Shown in pieces: positions 16,156 to 40,166 of a stretch of DNA of 64,000 bases. A model generated the notes under the pieces. That model worked only from the letters and a program-made list of their open reading frames with translations. It was not told the origin of the DNA and ran no database searches. Every line of letters starts with the position of its first letter. Position 1 is the stretch's first letter. The translations under genes and the position numbers were made by a program. Source of the DNA: Luteibacter rhizovicinus (GTDB lineage: Bacteria > Pseudomonadota > Gammaproteobacteria > Xanthomonadales > Rhodanobacteraceae); NCBI RefSeq assembly GCF_004342265.1, contig NZ_SMCS01000003.1, positions 310,001 through 374,000 on the forward strand, written 5' to 3'.

Positions 16156-16325
16156 GGTGGGAGAAGCGGGCCCGACCCGCTGCCGAAGGCGCAACGCCCG
16201 TAATCGCTCAGGCTCCCATACCACCGCGCGGGGAAAGACTCTGGAGAGACCGGTTGAATCCGGCGCCGAAGGTGCAAGAGGCGGTTCCATCGCCTCCAAA
16301 CTCTCAGGCAAAAGGACAGAGGGGC
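16156..16325 (+). promoter_or_regulatory. Tandem glycine riboswitch in the gcvP leader
   Basis: Two glycine aptamers lie side by side. The first (16156-16230) has GGGAGAAGC, GCCGAAGGCGCAA and CGCTCAGGCTCCCATACC. The second (16230-16325) has CTCTGGAGAGACCGG, GCCGAAGGTGCAAG and CTCTCAGGCAAAAGGACAGA. Glycine normally switches on cleavage-system genes. After it, GGGGCG (16321) can pair with CGCCCC (16359), enclosing ACGTGC/GCACGT, a likely expression platform just before the gcvP start. Confidence 0.95.
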
Positions 16326-16371
16326 GCCCCACGTGCGGCACGGCACGTTGTACCCGGACGCCCCTAACGCC

Positions 16372-35763: not shown

Positions 35764-35838
35764 CGTCGATGCGAGCGGATGCGGCACCGACGAAGCTCGC
35801 CTGGTTGCCCACCGCAACACCCGAGGAAGGACACGCAA

Positions 35839-36034
35839 GGTGTCCGCCACTGGCCGGTCTCCGGGCTTGCGAGCGATGCGATCAGCACCACCCCGACACC
35901 TTCCCGCTTTCGCAGTGGTTCTTCAGTCGGGTTTTCTCGCCTACCGTTGCGGGGGCAGCGCCGGCTTGGGATCGATCGATCCGCACCAGCTTCCCGTTTC
36001 ACCCTGCACGCCGGAATGACGGCGGCAGGACACC
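35839..36034 (-). promoter_or_regulatory. Cobalamin (B12) riboswitch in the mmsA leader
   Basis: Read on the minus strand, P1 pairs GGTGTCC (36034-36028) with GGACACC (35845-35839). Between them are the class hallmarks: GGGAAGCTGGTG, the conserved core GCTGCCCCCGCAACGGTA, GACTGAAGAACCACTG and the B12 box AGCCCGGAGACCGGCC. Just after P1, GGACAC-CTTGC-GTGTCC offers an alternative to P1. It points only toward mmsA, about 130 nt downstream. Confidence 0.95.
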
Positions 36035-36146
36035 TGTGGTCCGACGAGTGTAACGTCCGCGCCCGGACGAACAAGCTGCACTGCGCCATAGCCCGCAAAC
36101 CATCGTATGCTCGCCCGCGACACCATGCCTTCCGGAGAGATCGCGC

Positions 36147-36956
36147 TTGAGCACTTCCCCGTCCAAAGGCAGCCTCGTCTGCGTGGGCACCGGCATGACC
36201 CTGGGTGCGCACATGGGACCGCTGGCGCGCAGTCACATCGAAGCGGCGGACGTCGTCTTCGTCGGGGTCTCCGATGGTGTCGTCGAATTATGGCTGTCGG
36301 GCATGCATACGGACGTCCGCAGCCTGCAGCCGTACTACGCGAAAGGTAAGCCGAGAATCGAAACCTACCGGCAGATGGTCGATGCCATGCTGACCGAAGT
36401 GCGGGCGGGAAAGCGCGTCTGCGGCGTCTTCTATGGGCATCCAGGGGTGTTCGCCTGGGCGCCGCACAAGTCCATCGAGCAGGCCCGCCGCGAGGGATAC
36501 GCTGCCCATATGGAACCGGGCGTGTCGTCGGAGGACTGCCTTTACGCGGACCTCGGCATCGATCCGGGCACCTATGGATGCCAGCATTTCGAAGCCAGCC
36601 AGTTCATGATCAACCACCGCCGCGTGGACCCCAGCGCCTGGCTGGTGCTCTGGCAGGTAGGCGTCACCGGCGATATGTCCAAGGGAAAGTTCTCCACCAG
36701 CGAGCCCTATCTGCAGGTTCTCGTGGACGTACTGAGCGAGGATTACTCCCTGGATCACGAGGTCGTCATCTATCAGGCGCCCACGCTGCCCATCCAGTCG
36801 CCACGGATCGAGCGCCTTGCACTGCGCGATTTACCTCGATCCAATGTCGGCATGTCCGATACGCTGGTGTTGCCGCCAGCCCACGCCATGCGGCCAAATA
36901 CGGATGTCCGGGCGCGGCTCGCGGCCATCGACCTGGAGCTGGCCGGTAAGTCCTGA
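36147..36956 (+). CDS. Borosin-type peptide alpha-N-methyltransferase (SonM-like)
   Basis: This 269-residue SAM enzyme has the tetrapyrrole-methylase fold. The TTG at 36147 is the start: GGAGAG lies 9 nt upstream and no later ATG keeps the nucleotide-binding loop VCVGTG (11-15). Tyr64, Arg70 and Tyr74 (YYAKGKPRIETYRQ) reproduce the spacing of the catalytic Tyr66/Arg72/Tyr76 of OphMA. GHPGVF (97-102) and SSEDCLYADLGIDPGTYGCQ (127-146) are typical of this branch rather than of cobalamin-pathway methylases. A RiPP-like precursor gene follows 145 nt downstream. Such enzymes methylate backbone amides of their partner peptide. Confidence 0.9.
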   Translation: MSTSPSKGSLVCVGTGMTLGAHMGPLARSHIEAADVVFVGVSDGVVELWLSGMHTDVRSLQPYYAKGKPRIETYRQMVDAMLTEVRAGKRVCGVFYGHPGVFAWAPHKSIEQARREGYAAHMEPGVSSEDCLYADLGIDPGTYGCQHFEASQFMINHRRVDPSAWLVLWQVGVTGDMSKGKFSTSEPYLQVLVDVLSEDYSLDHEVVIYQAPTLPIQSPRIERLALRDLPRSNVGMSDTLVLPPAHAMRPNTDVRARLAAIDLELAGKS

Positions 36957-37101
36957 CCGATACGCCCTGGCGGACCCGCGTGAAATTACCAGTGTGATCG
37001 CATCCCGCGCGGGATATGATCGCGCTGTCGCCGTGCCCAAGGGGGGCACCGCACAGCCACTGGCCAGGTCTTGAAACCGCCAGCTATCGGGGGATGGTTC
37101 G

Positions 37102-37437
37102 ATGTCGAGTGTCGTCGATTTTCTGGAGAAACTGGGGCAGGACGCGCGGCTGCGTGACGCATCGCCCGAAGAGTTGGAACGCGCGATGGCGGAAGCACAG
37201 ATCGACGAACCATTGCGTGCCGCGATTCTGGCTGGCGATGCCGACGAACTTCGCAGCCAGCTGAGGCAGCACTCGTTCATGGCGACGCAGATGGACCACA
37301 CCGGTACCCAGATGCCAAGCGAAGACAATACCGGCACGCAGATGCCCAGCGACAACGAAGAAGAAAAGAAGGACGGCGAGGACGAAACGACCGAGGCCTC
37401 GCTCAAGGGTTCCAAAGACTGCTCGATCGTAGCCTGA
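37102..37437 (+). CDS. Split-borosin precursor peptide
   Basis: The 111-residue protein begins with a compact helical domain (residues 4-54: VVDFLEKLGQDARLRDASPE, then LRAAILAGDADELRSQL) of the kind that binds borosin methyltransferases. A flexible candidate core starts near residue 57. It has TGTQMPSEDN (67-76) and TGTQMPSDN (77-85), preceded by a degenerate ATQMDH (61-66). An acidic stretch (EEEKKDGEDE) and the C-terminus KDCSIVA follow. GGGGGA precedes the ATG. Residues actually methylated cannot be told from sequence. It lies between the methyltransferase and, 3 nt on, a diguanylate cyclase gene. Confidence 0.85.
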   Translation: MSSVVDFLEKLGQDARLRDASPEELERAMAEAQIDEPLRAAILAGDADELRSQLRQHSFMATQMDHTGTQMPSEDNTGTQMPSDNEEEKKDGEDETTEASLKGSKDCSIVA

Positions 37438-37440
37438 GTC

Positions 37441-39264
37441 ATGTTCCGGGCTGGCCTCAAACGCCTGCCTTTTTTGCCGGGAGTAGTCATGCTCCTGGGA
37501 TTGCTTGTGGGAAACGCGGGTGCGGTCGCATCCACTGCTGACAATCCTGCCAGCCAGCTCACCCATGCGGACAGTATCAAGACCTCGGACCATGTTGCGT
37601 TCGTCGAGATCATCGATCGCCTCGAACGCAACCCGGCGACGCTGTCGCCATCGCAGCAATGGCACCTGCGTTATCTCATCGCATGGCAGGATGCTTACGG
37701 CGGCGACTATGAAGGCGCCACGACGCAGCTGAATGCCATCGCCGAGCGATCGCCCGATGCCGTATTGCGCTTTCGCGCCCGCGCCACGCTGGTCAACATC
37801 CTCGGCATCGGCCATCGCTACGAGGAAGCTTTCTCGCGATTGAGCCAGCTGGTCGAACTGCTGCCGCAGATCACCGACAAGACCGCGCGATACCAGGGGC
37901 TGGGCGAAGCCGCGCAGGTACTGATCGCAGCAGGACAGTACGACCTTGCCATCACCTATGCGGAACAGATGCTCGACGATATCCCGCCCGGTGAAAACAC
38001 TTGCAAGGCGATGTCCTTCAAGTTGCACGCATTGCTGCGTAGCGGTCGCCTGAGCTCGCTCGATTCGCGCTTCAAGAACGGCATCGACGCTTGCGTGGAA
38101 GCGCATGAGTCCGTTTTCGCCAATGCGCTGCGCGCGGATGTCGCACGCTTTTACATCGCCAACGATCGCACGAAAGAAGCCATCGATCTCCTTCAGTCCA
38201 ACTATCCGGACGTCCTGCGCGACCAGTACCCGAGCCTGACCTCCAAGTACAACGCGCTGCTGGCGCAGGCTTACTTCAAGGAAGGCGACACGAATACCGC
38301 GCGCGGTTATGCACTCGACGCCGTCGACGGCGCCATCAAGGACGAGTTCACCGAACCGCTGAGCATCGCTTACGAAGTGCTCTATCTGATCGAAAAACAG
38401 CGCGGCGACCTGCATGCCGCGCTCGCGTACCACGAACAGTTTCTCACCGCCGACAAGGGCTATCTGAACGACATCAGCGCGCGTTCCATTGCCTATCAGA
38501 TCGTCCAGCAACAGGTGCTGGCGAAAAAGTTGCAGGTCGAAGGCCTGAACAAACAGAACCAGATCCTGCAGCTGCAACAGGCACTCGATCGTAAAGCCGT
38601 GGAAACCAGCCGGCTCTACATCGCCCTGCTGCTGACCGCTCTCGCTTCCATTGCATTGATCCTTTACCGGCTCAAACGCTCGGAGCTGCGCTTCATGCGG
38701 CTGGCGCGTCGCGACGGACTCACCGGCATCTGCAATCGACAGCACTTCGTCGACGAGGGCGAACAGGTACTGCGCTATGCCGCGAAATCGTCCCGTGGCG
38801 TCAGCATGATCCTGCTCGATCTCGACCACTTCAAGAACGTCAACGACACCCACGGCCATGCCGCGGGCGACCAGGTACTGAAGCGAACGGTCATGGTGTG
38901 CAGGAAATACCTGCACTCGACCGACGTCTTCGGTCGGCTCGGTGGCGAAGAGTTCGGCATCATGCTTCCCGAGTGCACGCCCGAACAGGCGATGGAACGG
39001 GCCGACCGCATTCGTGTCGCGCTGGCGACAACGGTCGCCGAGAACAGCACGGACGTCCCGGTCACCGCCAGCTTCGGCGTCGCATCGACCGACCGCTGCG
39101 GCTACGAACTAAGCCGCCTGCTTGTCGAAGCCGACGATGCGCTATATCAAGCCAAGCGCGACGGCCGTAACCGCGTCGTTTACGGCAAGGTCAACGGAGA
39201 ATCGGACTCTCCGTACCCGAACGCGACGAACGAGCAAGTCGCAGGATCGGTATCGTCGCGGTAA
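37441..39264 (+). CDS. Membrane diguanylate cyclase with periplasmic TPR-like sensor
   Basis: The 607-residue protein makes c-di-GMP. An N-terminal signal/anchor (LPFLPGVVMLLGLLVGNAGA) is followed by about 340 residues of TPR-like helices, probably periplasmic. Then come a coiled coil (QVLAKKLQVEGLNKQNQILQ), a membrane helix (about 393-411) and a cytoplasmic GGDEF domain. The active site GGEEF (501-505) is intact. The inhibitory RxxD site is changed to HSTD (492-495), so product inhibition is probably lost. It starts 3 nt after the borosin precursor stop, implying coupled translation. Confidence 0.93.
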   Translation: MFRAGLKRLPFLPGVVMLLGLLVGNAGAVASTADNPASQLTHADSIKTSDHVAFVEIIDRLERNPATLSPSQQWHLRYLIAWQDAYGGDYEGATTQLNAIAERSPDAVLRFRARATLVNILGIGHRYEEAFSRLSQLVELLPQITDKTARYQGLGEAAQVLIAAGQYDLAITYAEQMLDDIPPGENTCKAMSFKLHALLRSGRLSSLDSRFKNGIDACVEAHESVFANALRADVARFYIANDRTKEAIDLLQSNYPDVLRDQYPSLTSKYNALLAQAYFKEGDTNTARGYALDAVDGAIKDEFTEPLSIAYEVLYLIEKQRGDLHAALAYHEQFLTADKGYLNDISARSIAYQIVQQQVLAKKLQVEGLNKQNQILQLQQALDRKAVETSRLYIALLLTALASIALILYRLKRSELRFMRLARRDGLTGICNRQHFVDEGEQVLRYAAKSSRGVSMILLDLDHFKNVNDTHGHAAGDQVLKRTVMVCRKYLHSTDVFGRLGGEEFGIMLPECTPEQAMERADRIRVALATTVAENSTDVPVTASFGVASTDRCGYELSRLLVEADDALYQAKRDGRNRVVYGKVNGESDSPYPNATNEQVAGSVSSR

Positions 39265-39272
39265 ACCCCGAC

Positions 39273-40166
39273 TTACCCCCGATAACGCAAAGCATCCACC
39301 AGCAGCGTAAACGCTGGCGAAGGCTGCCGCCGGCTCGGGTAATAAAGGTGATAGCCGGAAAAGGGAGGACACCAGTCGGCAAGCACGCGGACGAGTCTTC
39401 CGTCGTCCATATAGTCCCGCACCTGATCTTCGGGCAGGTAAGCCAGACCGAGTCCTGCCAGAACCGCGCTCAGCCTCAGCGCGATGTTGTTGAACACCAA
39501 CTGCCCTTCGACGCGAACCTTCAGTTCACGGGCACCCTTTTCAAACTCCCAGGCGTAGATGCCACCGTGAGTCGGCAAGCGCAGATTGATGCAGCCGTGA
39601 TGCGTTAGCTCCTGCGGTGTCGTTGGGCGTTTATGGTGGGCGAAATAAGACGGCGCACCAACAACGGCCATGCGCAGATCCGGTCCGATGCGCACGGCGA
39701 TCATGTCCTTCGCCACCTGCTCGCCGAGTCGAACGCCGGCGTCGTAGCGTTCGGCGACGATATCCGTCAGGCCATAGTCGACGATCACTTCTACATGGAT
39801 GTCCGGATAGTCGGGCAGCAGCTTTTCCATGGCAGGCCACAGAATCGCACTTGCCGCGTGCTCACCCGACGTAATGCGGATAGTCCCCGCCGGTTTTTCC
39901 CGCAGTTCGCTCAGCGCGGAAAGCTCGGCCTCGATTTCCTCGAACCGGGGAGCGATGGCATCGCGCAAACGCTCGCCCGCTTCGGTCGGCGTGACACTGC
40001 GCGTGGTCCTTGCCAGGAGCCGGACGCCCAGACGCTCTTCCAGAGCCCGGATCGTATGACTGAGCGTCGACTGCGAAACACCGAGTTTCGCGGCTGCCTT
40101 TGTAAAGCTGCGCTCGCGCGCAACGGCGAGGAAAGCCAGGAGATCGCTGAAATTCTCGCGCGCCAT
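39273..40166 (-). CDS. LysR-family transcriptional regulator
   Basis: The 297-residue protein has an N-terminal winged helix ([40 protein letters not shown]) and a periplasmic-binding-like effector domain with the typical [28 protein letters not shown]. It is transcribed away from the cupin and aldo/keto reductase genes, which it probably regulates. A palindrome ACGCAT-N6-ATGCGT lies in the shared intergenic region. The effector molecule is unknown. Confidence 0.95.

Follow-up and report, generated by a model that had tools for sequence, protein, structure and literature searches.

A three-gene locus in a 64,000-nt stretch of the Luteibacter rhizovicinus genome (contig NZ_SMCS01000003.1, positions 310,001 to 374,000; this whole stretch is called the window) was confirmed as a split borosin with a conserved cyclase partner, a known kind of system. 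The genes encode a putative alpha-N-methyltransferase (MT), a separate precursor peptide and a membrane diguanylate cyclase with a tetratricopeptide repeat (TPR) sensor. Recurrence of the trio in many related bacteria suggests that the peptide tunes the sensor. The reading put forward here is that the product of the operon regulates the co-encoded cyclase through its TPR domain, predicted to be periplasmic, and that each cyclase has its own precursor; we give it roughly even odds (about 0.5).

The three open reading frames (ORFs) all lie on the + strand, separated by gaps of 145 and 3 nt. A first-pass annotation made from the sequence alone had given these ORFs and gaps exactly, including the peptide gene 145 nt after the MT gene and the cyclase gene starting 3 nt after the peptide stop. 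Its title spoke of a locus "fused" to the gene of an enzyme of cyclic dimeric GMP (c-di-GMP) signalling, a wording that has to be corrected, since the cyclase is a separate, adjoining gene. The features of the locus are as follows:

36147..36956, +, putative split-borosin alpha-N-methyltransferase, 269 aa, TTG start (Pfam TP_methylase 2.9e-15; phmmer, SonM 1.2e-76 and OphMA about 1e-50)
36336..36434, +, codons of MT residues Tyr64, Arg70, Tyr74 and Tyr96 (alignment with SonM Tyr58, Arg67, Tyr71 and Tyr93)
36957..37101, +, MT-precursor intergenic gap of 145 nt (ORF coordinates)
37102..37437, +, borosin precursor peptide, 111 aa (SonA matches; alignment with 31 other precursors)
37102..37284, +, borosin-binding-domain leader, precursor residues 1-61, five predicted helices (AlphaFold2 model; Foldseek to SonA chains)
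37273..37350, +, probable core, precursor residues 58-83, with MATQM / TGTQMPS / TGTQMPS repeats (placed after the leader by alignment; limits putative)
37351..37434, +, tail, precursor residues 84-111, first part acidic (alignment; acidic tails are typical of the cyclase-adjoining precursor)
37441..39264, +, membrane diguanylate cyclase with TPR sensor, 607 aa (Pfam; mean predicted local distance difference test, pLDDT, of the model 90.7)
37441..37533, +, N-terminal hydrophobic segment or signal peptide, cyclase residues 1-31 (hydropathy)
37546..38400, +, TPR alpha-solenoid sensor, cyclase residues 36-320 (Pfam, predicted model, alignment)
38608..38676, +, transmembrane segment, cyclase residues 390-412, within one long predicted helix, 324-423 (model, hydropathy)
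38686..39195, +, GGEEF diguanylate cyclase domain (Pfam, alignment)

The methyltransferase and its precursor

When the Protein Data Bank (PDB) was searched by phmmer with the MT, the six best sequences were SonM (up to 1.2e-76), followed by OphMA-type enzymes at about 1e-50. Tyr64, Arg70 and Tyr74, which had been claimed in an enzyme of the TP-methylase fold, are indeed present in a protein with a Pfam TP_methylase match; together with Tyr96, they align with SonM Tyr58, Arg67, Tyr71 and Tyr93, residues whose mutants and roles are described in passages of PMC8429565. The gene thus encodes a discrete MT homologous to SonM and OphMA with conserved active-site residues and, judging from this homology, the protein is a split-borosin N-methyltransferase.

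The adjoining gene, previously described as a separate gene for a peptide with a helical leader, answers to that description. Residues 1-61 match the SonA leader with a best E-value of 0.0063 (PDB search of 177,635 sequences, in which the top seven of eight matches were SonA chains), and the AlphaFold2 model contains five helices over residues 3-61, with block pLDDT values of 82-91 over residues 1-50. Beyond the leader the model is of low confidence and without helices (model mean pLDDT 71). In Foldseek, the twelve best matches of the model were SonA chains (E 0.38-3.5, best probability 0.98), E-values that are not low because the leader domain is short. The peptide is, on these three lines, a separate precursor with an N-terminal borosin-binding domain. 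The split-borosin reading is therefore strongly supported, by the phmmer matches of the MT to SonM and OphMA and by the likeness of the peptide to SonA in sequence, model and Foldseek. The category used here is type IV-like, which corresponds to "class 3" of PMC11395268.

Like the type IV split borosin SonM/SonA of Shewanella oneidensis, the locus combines a discrete MT bearing the same active-site residues with a SonA-type leader domain, and the same kind of TPR-GGDEF gene stands just after the precursor in Shewanella loci whose MTs are up to 99% identical to SonM. The difference lies in the core, which in the window consists of the MATQM/TGTQM repeat followed by an acidic tail, whereas in SonA-like precursors the core is short and hydrophobic and an acidic tail is lacking. 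The fused fungal borosins OphMA and dbOphMA share a homologous MT domain, but in these MT, clasp and core form one protein (PMC8429565), whereas here they are encoded by separate genes.

The diguanylate cyclase and its TPR sensor

The third gene encodes a membrane diguanylate cyclase, as had been proposed (GGDEF Pfam match, 4e-41), composed of a signal segment, a TPR solenoid (residues 36-320), a long helix (324-423) holding the transmembrane segment (390-412), and the GGEEF domain. The GGEEF active site, at residue 501, is invariant in 48 of 48 aligned sequences. At what we take to be the arginine position of the product-inhibition site (I-site), the protein has His (HSTD), and Arg is found in 36 of the 48. 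Cys188 and Cys218 are likewise invariant in all 48 sequences, and in 43 of these the sensor region has no other cysteine. The two invariant cysteines and the positive flank after the transmembrane segment fit a periplasmic sensor, the location also predicted for the TPR domain from the model.

At the limits used, the genome that contains the window has one MT, one precursor and no second copy of the TPR sensor (no paralogue at E-values up to 1), along with 19 GGDEF matches in 4.47 Mb. The domain fold and active-site motif are shared with the GGDEF cyclases SiaD, WspR and DgcB, from which the protein differs in its N-terminal TPR sensor, without paralogue in its own genome, and in accompanying borosin precursors. 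A peptide ligand inside the TPR superhelix, as proposed here, would resemble the TPR peptide pheromone receptors of the RRNPP kind; those receptors are cytoplasmic regulators in Gram-positives, whereas here a predicted periplasmic TPR domain is carried by a diguanylate cyclase.

Conservation of the three genes in related bacteria

At least 58 genome loci were found to encode a relative of the MT with 44-74% identity (by a pattern scan that was not exhaustive), and the closest named relatives include Dyella and Rhodanobacter. Without the window itself, 132 distinct related MTs were counted, and 125 of them are followed by a GGDEF gene on the same strand; the three-gene order, whose conservation the first-pass annotation had wished to see checked, is indeed kept in related genomes. 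An MT ORF entered this count once, and only if at least 1.5 kb of sequence followed it. The sources were all 58 pattern-scan loci (61 MT ORFs, including two fragments of one disrupted gene in L055), 20 Shewanella places of the SonM type and 20 of the second type, less the duplicate L130, and 30 stretches of the window's family that were hand-picked and non-random. The seven MTs lacking a downstream GGDEF gene include four Rheinheimera loci of changed order, with precursor and cyclase upstream of the MT (L029, L030, L034, L042), and L004, where the sensor gene is cut by the contig end; the other two are L056 and L158.

In Shewanella, a GGDEF gene was detected downstream of 20 of 20 SonM-type MTs fetched and of 19 of 19 distinct second-type MTs, which are 48-53% identical to SonM. 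MTs with 98-99% identity to SonM occur in four genomes, of which three are represented among the 20 SonM-type loci fetched; in one (L100, MT 99% identical), a 594-aa TPR-GGDEF gene starts 6 nt after the SonA-like gene. Because it is present in Shewanella loci with SonM-type MTs, the GGDEF gene is very probably part of the founding type IV borosin locus. The suggestion that such a third gene is new to borosins is not supported: every one of the 20 SonM-type Shewanella loci has the GGDEF gene behind its SonA-like gene (in three, the MT is 99% identical to SonM), and the legend of Figure 1 in PMC11395268 (2024) names "GGDEF, GGDEF-sequence-containing domain" among borosin architectures. The terms "borosin" and "diguanylate cyclase" were not found together in the open literature searched, nor was a statement of a c-di-GMP role for borosins, results that do not establish absence from print. 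What is of use here is the strengthened evidence for a pairing of peptide and cyclase, the third gene not being new. Four of the SonM-type Shewanella loci (L100, L103, L105, L107) lie about 2.5-3 kb from a tmRNA gene, which is a common integration site.

Precursor and cyclase genes are tightly spaced, with median gaps of 3-10 nt in four sets of near loci. Nineteen cyclase genes are preceded by more than one precursor, up to 11 in L162, and in 14 of these 19 loci the cyclase-proximal precursor has the most acidic residues after the leader (mean 12.2 vs 5.8). In four loci of the window's genus (L161, L162, L168, L169), the distal precursors end soon after a core of roughly MYxPQxxQS. These arrays suggest a specialised cyclase-linked precursor accompanied by a pool of variant peptides. 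The largest, L162:3332-6922 and L169:7489-10108, hold 11 and 7 precursors with varied cores between MT and cyclase, and the long acidic tail is found on the cyclase-proximal precursor only.

Co-occurrence and co-variation of peptide and sensor genes

The MT was found in 164 of 233 genomes of the family (E 0.001) and the TPR sensor in 159 (at a different limit, E 1e-10), and 158 genomes have both (rows compared by eye). Only one of the 159 genomes with a sensor lacks the MT (G081, 86% complete), and six have an MT and no sensor (G028, G031, G034, G036, G039, G211; weak matches in G028 and G211). In the 23 genomes of the window's genus, 41 MT matches stand against 66 sensor matches (summed over rows). 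Twenty sensor loci were chosen for having no MT listed nearby, two of which proved to have one; in 16 of the other 18 (14 under stricter limits), a leader-domain precursor lies beside or overlaps the start of the cyclase gene. These precursor-cyclase pairs without an MT in the fetched stretch (L180-L189, L192, L193, L195-L198) therefore imply modification in trans.

The association is specific to the sensor. Indeed, out of the 166 GGDEF ORFs longer than 300 aa in the stretches, an adjoining precursor was found for 126 of the 153 that carry this sensor and for 0 of the 13 that do not. From the 19 GGDEF matches in the 4.47 Mb of the window's own genome, chance adjacency is estimated by us at about 0.1% per locus.

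Distances between MTs and sensors correlate across 122 triads (L001, L060-L099 and L130 left out), with r 0.80 and a partial correlation of 0.57 given the cyclase domain, as against a partial MT-cyclase correlation of 0.16 given the sensor; 0 of 1000 permutations gave as high a value. The precursor core also follows the sensor (partial 0.34) more than the cyclase domain (partial 0.10). Where genomes have several triads, the pairing of MT and sensor paralogues agrees in 102 of 109 scorable genome pairs. The 20 genomes give 190 possible pairs; those not scored did not have two triads in each genome or showed no clear MT pairing.

Proposed mechanism and its weak points

By homology to SonM/SonA, the MT would bind the helical leader of the 111-aa precursor and methylate backbone nitrogens of the core, which would probably be freed from leader and acidic tail by proteolysis and cross the inner membrane by some route. 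The methylated core could then bind the periplasmic TPR domain of the cyclase, and binding would alter the long transmembrane helix, the activity of the GGEEF dimer and, finally, c-di-GMP output. In other membrane diguanylate cyclases, sensor input changes dimer activity through the membrane helix, and the last steps are modelled on these. Each cyclase would keep a dedicated precursor just upstream, and one MT could serve several pairs in trans.

Neighbour families (proteins of at least 120 aa) were surveyed around 59 loci; several clusters were antisense or out-of-frame shadows of MT and cyclase. Besides MT, cyclase and these shadows, no family of that size occurred in more than 7 of the 59 loci. 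The family of seven is a pepsin-like A1-type aspartyl protease (Pfam Asp, 4e-15), a kind uncommon in bacteria. A profile search placed its gene ahead of the MT, in the same orientation, in 8 of 58 genome-contig stretches (in two frames in L028) and in 16 of 19 second-type Shewanella loci, so that a processed product fits in those lineages, where the protease is, from its sequence and position, a candidate maturation protease. The loci concerned are L120-L129, L131-L136, L022, L023, L027, L028, L032, L033, L037 and L045.

Several points weigh against regulation of the cyclase by the peptide. The same profile search found no such protease in the window, nor in the stretches of 20 SonM-type, 9 distant, 30 further family and 20 sensor-only loci; the precursor is without evident export signal, and the 59 loci share no recurring exporter family. 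As signal, recurring exporter and protease are missing, both the cutting of a cytoplasmic product and its transit to a periplasmic sensor are left unexplained. Transport is thus the weak point: no exporter links the apparently cytoplasmic MT and precursor to a sensor that looks periplasmic. According to the abstract of PMC8429565, membrane permeability is favoured by N-methylation, which offers a route, not a proof. Nor could the acidic tail dock on the sensor by simple charge, because the sensor is itself net acidic (-10 in the window, median -7).

Further points concern the association itself. No precursor was found alongside 27 of the 153 sensor genes. Four genomes of one genus of the family, g5 (G031, G034, G036, G039), carry MTs that resemble those of borosins (E about 1e-64 to 1e-72) but lack the TPR sensor, and probably represent another type of borosin. 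Among distant MTs of a class-wide sample, GGDEF was found downstream in 1 of 8, compared with 125 of 132 near relatives (of ten class-level places taken, L140 is a member of the family and, at the limit used, no MT was obtained from L149). Shared ancestry enters the distance correlations, and a slower, more constrained cyclase domain can weaken its own correlation. The tie to c-di-GMP signalling proposed in the first-pass annotation is supported by the conservation, co-occurrence and co-variation computed here, whereas methylation of the core, its release and crossing, TPR binding and the change in c-di-GMP activity remain inferred.

A section of PMC8429565 states that, as of 2021, no split borosin pathway had been tied to a final product, and no stated biological role of split borosins was found in the literature searched. 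A dedicated cyclase beside almost every related precursor offers a testable hypothesis for the function of these peptides. Should it hold, c-di-GMP signalling would have backbone N-methylated peptides as ligands, and peptide-receptor pairs could be read from the split borosins of Dyella, Rhodanobacter, Shewanella and related bacteria. A broader proposal, possible but tentative, is that bacterial split borosins are N-methylated peptide signals, every precursor being neighboured by a cognate periplasmic TPR-cyclase receptor, with one MT acting in trans for several pairs and arrays of spare precursors (up to 11) diversifying the signal, a communication from ribosomally synthesized and post-translationally modified peptide to c-di-GMP.

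Alternative explanations

The direction of control could be reversed, with the TPR domain sensing some other periplasmic cue and c-di-GMP switching production, maturation or release of the peptide. The same operon order in nearly all loci would be expected under such control, and the lack of a recurring exporter could mean that release needs a c-di-GMP-regulated host system. However, the precursor-cyclase pairs without a local MT (16 of 18) and the excess co-variation of sensor and precursor core point to a specific match of peptide and sensor rather than to a general regulator, and we regard this explanation as unlikely, though worth keeping in view.

The main structural rival dispenses with export: the uncleaved methylated precursor would act as a cytoplasmic subunit of the cyclase or of an MT-cyclase complex. 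It accounts for the absence of a recurring exporter and of a protease near the MT in the window's family, for short gaps suggestive of coupled translation, and for the long acidic tail kept on the cyclase-proximal precursor in 14 of the 19 multi-precursor loci. Nevertheless, the co-varying part is the TPR domain, predicted to be periplasmic, and in 24 other loci the protease gene ahead of the MT speaks for cleavage; for this last reason, we weight it lower and consider it rather improbable.

It is more doubtful still that the genes are merely carried together as a mobile or conserved block, peptide and cyclase being functionally unlinked. Adjacency alone cannot show function, and orthologous synteny inflates the counts; but the adjacency persists across distant genera (Dyella, Rhodanobacter and Lysobacter; Shewanella, Alteromonas and Rheinheimera), in the changed order of the four Rheinheimera loci, in duplicated units and without the MT.

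A last alternative places the methylase among tetrapyrrole or cobalamin enzymes, next to an operon under B12 control. It draws on the TP_methylase fold, on a cobalamin riboswitch at a distance of 95 nt and on genes of B12 uptake and salvage close to several borosin loci of the genus, but can be dismissed almost entirely, given the best matches of the MT to SonM and OphMA, cobalamin models far under their cut-offs, and a riboswitch that lies on the other strand and leads another gene.

The cobalamin riboswitch and other surroundings

The two cobalamin models scored 18 bits (PRK05991, cut-off 391) and 11.5 bits (cobM_cbiF, cut-off 259.65) on the MT. The riboswitch itself (97 bits, 35835-36052, - strand) leads mmsA, an arrangement found in 9 of the 11 genomes of the genus that have an mmsA orthologue of at least 85% identity, the window's included; B12 control of the methylmalonate-semialdehyde dehydrogenase pathway looks unusual. 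In the other loci scanned, 4 of 53 have a cobalamin riboswitch in the stretch, two of them in Shewanella and several kb off. Consistent location of homologues of the enzyme in cobalamin clusters, named earlier as an observation that would overturn the borosin reading, was thus not seen as a rule. The closeness of the riboswitch does not make the MT a B12 enzyme; two B12 contexts recur in this genus. In seven borosin or precursor-sensor loci from other species of the genus (L166, L167, L171, L172, L188, L190, L194), a cobalamin riboswitch lies about 1-3 kb away: in L188 as the leader of a B12 receptor gene, in L171 and L172 with cobB and cobO following (models matched), the other four being alike by eye.

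Around the three genes, a GGAG motif lies 9 nt ahead of the TTG start of the MT ORF. No sigma-70-type promoter match was found in 35900-39400, and terminator-like matches in the same interval were at about chance level. The - strand upstream carries, in one block, a gene for methylmalonate-semialdehyde dehydrogenase (751 bits) and others resembling those of acyl-CoA dehydrogenases; downstream of the cyclase, a LysR regulator gene is convergent. Elsewhere in the window, a glycine riboswitch was detected at 16231-16329 (+, 65.9 bits).

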